A DNA stretch of 64,000 nucleotides from Gracilimonas mengyeensis (GTDB taxonomy: Bacteria; Bacteroidota; Rhodothermia; Balneolales; Balneolaceae). A program made the translations under genes and the position numbers. Within the stretch, counting starts at the first letter, position 1. Every line of letters starts with the position of its first letter. Location: assembly GCF_900182705.1 (NCBI RefSeq), contig NZ_FXTP01000001.1, positions 248,001-312,000 on the forward strand, read 5' to 3'. The notes beneath the pieces were generated by a model, which made no database searches, was not told the origin of the DNA, and saw only the letters and a list, made by a program, of their open reading frames with translations. Below are positions 41,999 to 43,663 of this stretch, one piece after another.

Positions 41999-42280
41999 CT
42001 ACTTTAGCACATCCGACCATTCTTGCTTCTTGTCGAATACGCTGCGTGCAAATGGACAGAGTGGTAAAATGGATATTTCATTATTTCTGGCAAATTCAAC
42101 GCTTGCTTTAACCAATTGTACACCCAGATGTTGGCCTCTGTAGTCATCTGATACCTGGGTATGATCAATAATTATTTTTGAAGGCCCCGCTTTAGAGTAG
42201 GTCATTTCTGCTACATCAGTCCCATCTTGTTCAATAAAAAAGCGACCTTTGGTATCCTTTTCTTCGTGCTGTACGTTCAT
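41999..42280 (-). CDS. Small GNAT-like N-acetyltransferase (YidJ/COG2388 type)
   Basis: A 93-residue protein with the compact GNAT core: Arg-Gly-Gln-His-Leu-Gly (acetyl-CoA pyrophosphate loop, R/Q-x-x-G-x-G/A-like) near 52, and Ile-Leu-Pro-Leu-Cys-Pro-Phe-Ala near 78. This is the pattern of the small Gcn5-like COG2388 family, which includes human GTLF3/NATD1. It has no signal or membrane segment. The substrate is unknown. It is convergent with the ECF pair and adjoins the MITE-like element on its upstream side. Confidence 0.8.
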   Translation of the reverse strand: MNVQHEEKDTKGRFFIEQDGTDVAEMTYSKAGPSKIIIDHTQVSDDYRGQHLGVQLVKASVEFARNNEISILPLCPFARSVFDKKQEWSDVLK

Positions 42281-42427
42281 ATGCGGCTAATTTTTTAGTG
42301 TGATGTATTTCTTACTTCTAAAAATATTTTGTCAGCCCATCTAATGTACATAAGTATTCGATATTCATCATTAGGTTCTGTTGAAACTGTCTGAGCCAGC
42401 CTATTTATCTATTCTATCTTTTATTAA

Positions 42428-42701
42428 CGTCAGTTCCAGATAAAATCTCAACTTTAACTGTAATTGCTCCGGCCTTCAGGCCGGTGGAGAATGAAAAGAA
42501 AAATAAAGTTTTGCCCCAGTGGAGCTACAAAATTATTCGTTCTTCAAATCTTTGGCTGTATGGTCTTTTACCATTCGTGCCGCCAACCCTCAACAAACGT
42601 ATGGACTTTAATACCACCAAAATTCGGGTACTTTATTAAAGAGGTTCGCTTTCACCGGCCTGAAGTTCGGAGCAACTTATTTCTTATCTCGAACTGACGT
42701 T
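42428..42701. mobile_element. MITE-like non-autonomous element with nested inverted repeats
   Basis: Outer inverted repeats AACGTCAGTTCCAGATAA (42428-42445) and TTATCTCGAACTGACGTT (42684-42701) match at 17 of 18 positions. They are flanked by TTATT on both sides (42423-42427 and 42702-42706), which looks like a 5-bp target-site duplication. Inner repeats at 42466-42488 and 42653-42675 match at 21 of 23. The left inner repeat is itself a perfect hairpin (CCGGCCT, loop TC, AGGCCGG). No transposase fits within about 274 bp; the 77-codon frame at 42464-42697 runs through both repeats and is not gene-like. It could be mobilised by a full-length relative elsewhere. Confidence 0.72.
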
Positions 42702-42772
42702 TTATTAATAAAAATAGATTGATATCTGTTATCTTGTTTCCGTTTAAAAATAACAGTCCATCAATTTTTAGT

Positions 42773-43663
42773 ATGCAGATTTCAGCTCGTTTGGGTGTTA
42801 AAAATTTCACTTACAGTATAGTATTCTTTTGTTTGTTTTGCATTTCATGTGCTGATCAATCCAAGAAAAACGACTCTTTTGATTTAGATTCTTATGCTCG
42901 TATAGAAGAACCAGCAAGGGATGAAGTTTCAGGTATTGTCAAAAGTAGCAGGGAAGAAGAGGTTTACTGGGTACACGGAGATTCGGGTACGGATCCTAAA
43001 ATATTTCCCATTAAAAAGACTGGCAAAATCGCATCCCAAAATCATAAAGAAGGAGTAGAGCTTTATGATGTAGACAATAATGATTGGGAAGAAATTGCAA
43101 TGGATGATGAATCTAACCTGATTGTGGCTGATATTGGTAACAACTGCCTTTGCAGGGATGATTTATCGCTTATTTATTTTCCTGAGCCTGGAATTGAACG
43201 AAAAGCGGTTGGAAATTACCAGCAGGTTTATATTCAATACCCACAGGCTATGGAAACAAGCCCACCCGATGCAGAAGCCGTTTTTTATAGCAATGACTAC
43301 CTCTATATCATCACCAAGGTTGATGTCAGTTCCCAATCTCAATTGTATAAACTTCCCTGGCCGGCGAGTTCAAATGCACGCAACAGTGCCTATACCGTAA
43401 CCCATGTGGATGGCTTTCATTTTGATGATACAGTTACCGCAGCAGATTTCTCTCGCAATGGAGATACCCTGGCTGTTTTAACTTCATCATCCCTTTGGAT
43501 GTTCACGGATTTTGAGGGAGAGAACTTTTTTGAAGGCAATTCAAAGAAAATCCGGTTTAAAGCAGACCAGGTTGAATCCGTAGCATTTACCGGACAAGGC
43601 TCCGTTCTAATTGCCGAAGAAGAAGGCCAATTGTATGAGCTTCCACTGTTTGAATTAAAATAG
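42773..43663 (+). CDS. Predicted lipoprotein, beta-propeller-like
   Basis: A 296-residue protein. Start at ATG 42773 is chosen because the signal peptide (hydrophobic core then Cys-Ile-Ser-Cys lipobox near residue 29) follows at normal distance; the in-frame start at 42719 would bury it. The mature part has repeated strands such as Val-Ser-Gly-Ile-Val, His-Gly-Asp-Ser-Gly-Thr-Asp-Pro, Asp-Trp-Glu-Glu-Ile-Ala-Met-Asp and Ala-Asp-Ile-Gly-Asn-Asn, a pattern seen in a family of secreted beta-propeller proteins. No enzymatic function is evident. It is convergent with the menaquinone operon. Confidence 0.72.
   Translation: MQISARLGVKNFTYSIVFFCLFCISCADQSKKNDSFDLDSYARIEEPARDEVSGIVKSSREEEVYWVHGDSGTDPKIFPIKKTGKIASQNHKEGVELYDVDNNDWEEIAMDDESNLIVADIGNNCLCRDDLSLIYFPEPGIERKAVGNYQQVYIQYPQAMETSPPDAEAVFYSNDYLYIITKVDVSSQSQLYKLPWPASSNARNSAYTVTHVDGFHFDDTVTAADFSRNGDTLAVLTSSSLWMFTDFEGENFFEGNSKKIRFKADQVESVAFTGQGSVLIAEEEGQLYELPLFELK

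Follow-up and report, generated by a model that had tools for sequence, protein, structure and literature searches.

The intergenic DNA upstream of a GNAT acetyltransferase gene in Gracilimonas mengyeensis (contig NZ_FXTP01000001.1; the window is the whole 64,000-nucleotide stretch analysed, positions 248,001 to 312,000) contains a short inverted-repeat element. It raises three questions: whether this DNA has been mobile, which transposase family could have moved it, and where its interior comes from.

Anatomy and copies of the element

The short inverted-repeat element of the preliminary description is confirmed, and its length, put there at roughly 274 bp, is 274 bp (Table 1). Both layers of inverted repeats reported there are present: the outer arms of 18 nt (42426-42443 and 42684-42701) are 94% complementary, and the inner arms of 23 nt (42464-42486 and 42653-42675) are 91% complementary. 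The inner hairpin, described as perfect, is so in the left REP (CCGGCCTTCAGGCCGG at 42470-42485), and the partner REP carries substitutions. The TTATT noted at both ends is a real flanking repeat abutting the AACG...CGTT ends, and is longer than was thought by one base on each side; with the convention that IS982 elements begin with AC, the duplication is TTTATTA (7 bp). As had been stated, no transposase lies inside: the single listed ORF (77 aa, TTG start) crosses the repeats and is unsupported. No consensus promoter or terminator was found in the intergenic region, and the element, its siblings and the cores gave only sub-threshold matches to Rfam, none reaching the gathering score of any family.

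Table 1. Features of the element and its neighbours (window positions).
Feature	Position	Strand	Basis or remark
Left target-site duplication TTTATTA	42420..42426	.	sequence
IS982-type MITE, 274 bp	42427..42700	.	IS982 convention (elements begin with AC), repeats, copies
Left terminal inverted repeat ACGTCAGTTCCAGATAA	42427..42443	+	one mismatch vs family ACGTSAGTTCGAKATAA
Inner arm 1 = REP hairpin TTGCTCCGGCCTTCAGGCCGGTG	42464..42486	+	
Conserved ~150-bp core	42502..42654	-	read on minus strand; stems A and B
Core stem A: ACCC...GAGGGTT	within 42502..42654	-	
Core stem B: AAAGATTTG...CAAAACTTT	within 42502..42654	-	degenerate in window copy
Inner arm 2 = inverted REP hairpin CACCGGCCTGAAGTTCGGAGCAA, substituted	42653..42675	+	
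Right terminal inverted repeat, exact family sequence	42684..42700	-	
Right target-site duplication TTTATTA	42701..42707	.	sequence
Neighbour GNAT acetyltransferase	41999..42280	-	PF14542 1.5e-23; divergent from other neighbour
Neighbour 295-aa frame	42776..43663	+	"lipoprotein" in preliminary description; no Pfam match

We searched the G. mengyeensis genome (a draft of 4.67 Mb in 33 contigs) and found 40 matches to the element at E ≤ 0.001. Ten copies align over at least 250 bp; besides that of the window, these are eight at 79-91% identity and one at 67%, and the copies are now diverged and decaying. All matches in the 56 other genomes searched as relatives were of 32 bp or less, and the 274-bp family as such was found in its own genome only (57 genomes, own included). 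The end motif occurs at 57 + 52 sites in this genome at up to three mismatches, vs 0 + 5 for a reversed-pattern control, and at 124 + 114 sites in one congener (G008) at up to two mismatches (control: 0 + 1); with at most one mismatch, 51 of the 128 genomes of the order have at least one site. Exact duplications of 6-7 bp flank 17 of 39 own-genome elements (10 of 7 bp, seven of 6 bp) and are absent at 22, and shuffling the right flanks among elements 2000 times gave a mean of 1.4 and a maximum of 6. The 39 end pairs used for the duplication and nesting tests exclude duplicate views, overlapping longer pairings and pairs from other genomes. Exact duplications are also found at 17 of 34 MITEs with the same ends from other taxa. 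That the locus is a chance set of inverted repeats or a decayed intergenic region deserves practically no credence, being refuted by copy number: it would have to face the 40 matches, the 109 end sites against five control sites, and duplications above the shuffled level.

No orthologous empty site was obtained for the window copy because the gene flanking it has no homologue in the nine congeners in which it was sought. Within the genome, a 271-bp MITE is nested in another MITE with an exact duplication for each (L089:282-756), and the relatives of the host MITE (L095 and L013) continue through the insertion point without the insert. This is an internal empty site for a sibling of the element, with a loose alignment near the point. 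The preliminary description had named single-copy occurrence without an empty-site allele as evidence against a MITE; the element is multicopy, and a sibling has this internal empty site.

Several other arrangements were seen. Two adjacent MITEs with these ends, of 477 and 273 bp, have one short direct repeat in common between them (L077:1080-1834). Two chimeras (L013:1501-1700 and L012) join a 274-type half to a palindrome repeat of GTCAT...ATGAC type. Short forms of ~90 bp (L016, L017, L020 and L025) retain a single REP hairpin with its loop in either orientation. We considered these as ancestors of the element and rejected this, since the loops occur in both orientations (TTCA in L017, TGAA in L016), a pattern that deletions from one REP arm to the other in a 274-bp parent would give; the ~90-bp forms are probably such deletions.

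IS982-type ends and the search for their transposase

A public genome collection was scanned for the ends, which returned at least 119 stretches (from Bacteroidota, Calditrichota, Acidobacteria, Legionella and others). Transposon-size end pairs were found in four of the 80 stretches inspected out of at least 119: L154 (1033 bp), L141 (1032 bp), L140 (1070 bp) and L172 (1452 bp, gene interrupted). Their frames are IS982 transposases (NF033520: 9e-75, 5.7e-76, 5.5e-72 and 1.9e-38, respectively). With the L141 protein as query, an IS982 protein match was obtained in 13 of the 128 genomes of the order; one locus from the same family, Balneolaceae (L237), has AACGTGAGTTCGAGATAA at both ends of its IS982 gene. 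The exact motif is present at both ends of L237 and at one end of L241 and L244, most other IS982 loci of the order having the variant AACCTGAGTTCGATT. Exact 6- or 7-bp duplications flank all five IS982 elements checked (L154, L141, L140, L172 and L237), as they do in the MITEs. Because the ends and the 6-7-bp duplications are common to transposase-bearing IS982 elements, we assign the window element to the IS982-type MITEs, presumably mobilised in trans. Movement in trans had been predicted in the preliminary description, and the multiple copies, the excess of end motifs, the presence of the ends on several interiors and the duplications agree with it.

The window element resembles the five IS982 elements at the ends only (17-24 bp; in one element 32 bp at 81%), with no significant similarity to any of them in the interior. 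The element is thus classified by its ends only and not as a deletion derivative. The earlier remark that the interior does not clearly derive from a known insertion sequence holds for the interior, and fails for the ends, which are IS982 ends. Otherwise the element has the AC start, a 7-bp repeat within the 2-10 bp of the family, multiple copies, a short length and no transposase; what was not found is an internal remnant of a parental IS and a source of transposase in the genome. Searches by PF13612 and by the L141 protein gave no IS982 transposase in any of the 10 genomes of the genus (own and nine congeners). These are draft assemblies, and IS copies often lie in assembly gaps. With no such gene found in these genomes the family looks stranded; as far as draft assemblies allow a judgement, it appears to have lost its mover. 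In the richest congener (G008), the end pairs among ~100 of 166 sites are all MITE-size, with none at transposon spacing. G008 has ~240 end sites, yet the IS982 gene was not found there.

Ends of the IS982 family are mostly AC-initial, and direct repeats, when present, are of 2-10 bp, with 7 bp in IS1187 of Bacteroides fragilis, according to the passages on this family in PMC7335449; the elements described there are ~1 kb long with a transposase, which the window element lacks. IS982-derived MITEs are already published in Cardinium, and the present end motif is already published in MITEs of Porphyromonas gingivalis. MITECca01 of Cardinium cOegib derives from ISCca4, which is intact in that genome, and resembles our element in being short (~240 bp), gene-free, IS982-ended, mostly intergenic and of high copy number (sections on MITECca01 in PMC9769881). 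Unlike MITECca01, which shares a short subterminal stretch with ISCca4 (PMC9769881, same sections), the element described here has no parent in the genus, and its interior consists of nested REP hairpins and a core. The P. gingivalis ends are ACGTGAGTTCGATATAAAGGAA (MITE239), TCGAACTCACGT (MITE700) and ACGTCAGTTCGA (ISPg3); MITE239 and MITE700 have the same end motif as our element, and no comparable interior appears in the passages of PMC4596501 that describe them. Table 2 of that paper places ISPg3 under IS5, though its end ACGTCAGTTCGA equals the ends of the IS982 elements found here. The suggestion that this may be a new miniature family stands for the 274-bp family, which was seen in one genome, and does not extend to its ends (PMC4596501, PMC9769881).

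The REP hairpins and the core between them

The inner arms are REP hairpins. In one congener (G002, L032), exact copies of the 16-mer CCGGCCTTCAGGCCGG at 1508 and 2140 flank a Y1 transposase gene (1674-2105; 143 aa, RAYT-type, PF01797 8.2e-26), and in a second (G001, L033) the REP hairpin adjoins a 78%-identical homologue of that gene. The hairpin is thus common to the flanks of RAYT genes in both, and a cognate RAYT was not found in the own genome, where none of the five Y1_Tnp genes has the REP at up to two mismatches within 1.5 kb. With neither an IS982 transposase nor a Y1 gene with this REP found, both layers lack their likely mover in this genome. Two of its Y1 transposase genes (L072 and L073) have hairpins of a different sequence at their flanks, so it may hold more than one REP/RAYT set.

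One could take the whole as a RAYT/REP (REPIN-type) element whose outer ends are incidental, given that its inner arms are the hairpins of a RAYT gene in two congeners and that the core plus REP arrays exist without IS982 ends. We regard this as very unlikely: the outer ends are sharply defined, are common to other interiors and are duplication-flanked, and target duplications are not expected from Y1 transposition. The boundaries of the window copy coincide with IS982 ends and duplications, and the REP is absent within 1.5 kb of all five own Y1 genes. As in the REP/RAYT (REPtron) systems treated in sections of PMC6006769, the palindromic hairpins form inverted pairs and the same hairpin flanks a Y1 gene in congeners; unlike in them, the pair is enclosed by ends with target duplications, and no GTAG tag was noticed in an unsystematic look. 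REP/RAYT class 2.6, mostly from Bacteroidetes, is described there as having no GTAG consensus (PMC6006769).

For the ~150-bp core we built two covariance models. The first (R1), made solely from 12 copies of the 274-bp family, matched four of five 477-583-bp elements (E from 1.4e-6 to 2.8e-4) and the fifth partially (L078:1521-2001, E = 0.041); over the order it matched six of 128 genomes, all of the own genus. The broader model (R2, 23 sequences) matched eight of 394 genomes in a sample of the phylum, namely four from the own genus, three from elsewhere in the family, one from elsewhere in the order and none from outside it. This places the core in five genera of Balneolales, with weak and partial matches in G026 and G044. 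Against 100 of the at least 119 end-bearing stretches from the public collection, the best match of R2 had E = 0.11. No IS982 end (up to four mismatches) lies within 400 bp of 21 of 23 core loci checked outside the 274-bp family, and most of these loci stand between inverted hairpins that differ in sequence from the REP.

It is possible, though on balance doubtful, that the core is conserved as a structured RNA or as a signal in single-stranded DNA, with the MITE a mere carrier, a reading compatible with an IS982-type MITE. The core motif blocks have near-constant spacing, and the core is present in five genera. Over 30 sequences, pairing is kept in 96.4% of cells of the two stems (AACCC/GGGTT and AAGCTTYG/CRAAGCTT), with five pairs changed on both sides vs a shuffled mean of 1.2 (0 of 500 as high; slid partners gave 0-3). 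Four of these five compensated pairs, however, come from one sequence each, and on average the sequence enclosed by the stem arms is no more stably folded than its shuffles (mean z = -0.6 and -0.07). The core alignment (A5) excludes L283, L284, L290 and L296 (second stem not found), the second core in L270 and the near-duplicates L265, L269 and L276. In the MITE copies of the own genome, only one of 42 stem pairs is changed on both sides, and the second stem of the window copy is broken; this uncompensated decay argues that the structure of the core is not maintained after insertion, and weakens a functional-RNA reading within those copies. An attC-like reading of the GTTGGGC motif in the core was considered and dropped. 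We lean towards a core that is a hairpin element of DNA or RNA, disseminated along with REP arrays and captured once or more between IS982 ends.

Many interiors between one set of ends

Pairing of the ends in the own genome gave elements of 90, ~200, 264-273, 274 and 477-583 bp, and in G008 elements of 193, 204 and 313-364 bp. The paired elements form several groups, the interiors of which are mostly unalignable between groups. We folded the interiors of 33 MITEs from other taxa, trimmed by 25 bp per end: the mean z was -5.0, with 22 of 33 below -3, vs a mean z of -0.23 and two of 64 below -3 for equal-length segments of the same loci, a control that is probably mostly coding and not ideal. 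The 33 come from 39 MITE-size pairs in the 80 inspected loci (of at least 119), after exclusion of L118 and L139 (own genus), L119 and L182 (too short), and L166 and the second L156 pair (repeats of one element). The same ends enclose several unrelated interiors, both in this genome and in other phyla, and these interiors are mostly self-folding. Minimal end-to-end palindromes of 58-60 bp, with little beyond two IS982 ends, were also seen (L182:3087-3146, 60 bp; L119:7-64).

Taken together, the element is very probably a non-autonomous IS982-family MITE with a cargo of REP hairpins and core, whose transposase was lost or transient. Judging from its anatomy, an IS982 transposase acting in trans would have recognised the 17-18-bp ends and moved the element, leaving a 6-7-bp A+T-rich target duplication. 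The interior would be a cargo of folding DNA and not an IS remnant, namely a RAYT-type pair of REP hairpins around the ~150-bp core. The core, which elsewhere in Balneolales is mostly found free of IS982 ends, would have been captured between such ends to produce the composite, which would then have multiplied in this genome; the transposase, none being found in the genus, would later have been lost or have acted only transiently.

The self-folding interiors and the minimal elements suggest, rather than show, that IS982-ended palindromes receive further palindromic DNA in their middle. We put forward only tentatively, at less than even credence, that the core represents a structured mobile element of Balneolales not described before (hairpins of RNA or single-stranded DNA, with the REP family of the host on either side) and that, more generally, IS982-ended MITEs are nesting vehicles, in which minimal palindromes (60 bp in L182) repeatedly take up palindromic repeats centrally and carry them between genomes. 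Literature searches gave no match on MITEs in Balneola and, among the matches listed, none on a MITE or insertion sequence in Gracilimonas; neither one end set across many unrelated folding interiors nor the Balneolales core was found in these searches or in those on IS982 MITEs.

An orphan repeat family is hereby tied to a named transposase family, and one set of ends is seen with unrelated folding interiors across phyla. The core in Balneolales is a candidate for RNA sequencing. If nesting holds, it would provide a concrete route of dispersal for palindromic repeats and a testable claim on why genomes without the transposase hold up to hundreds of end sites, and would help to explain the spread of hairpin repeats in Bacteroidota.
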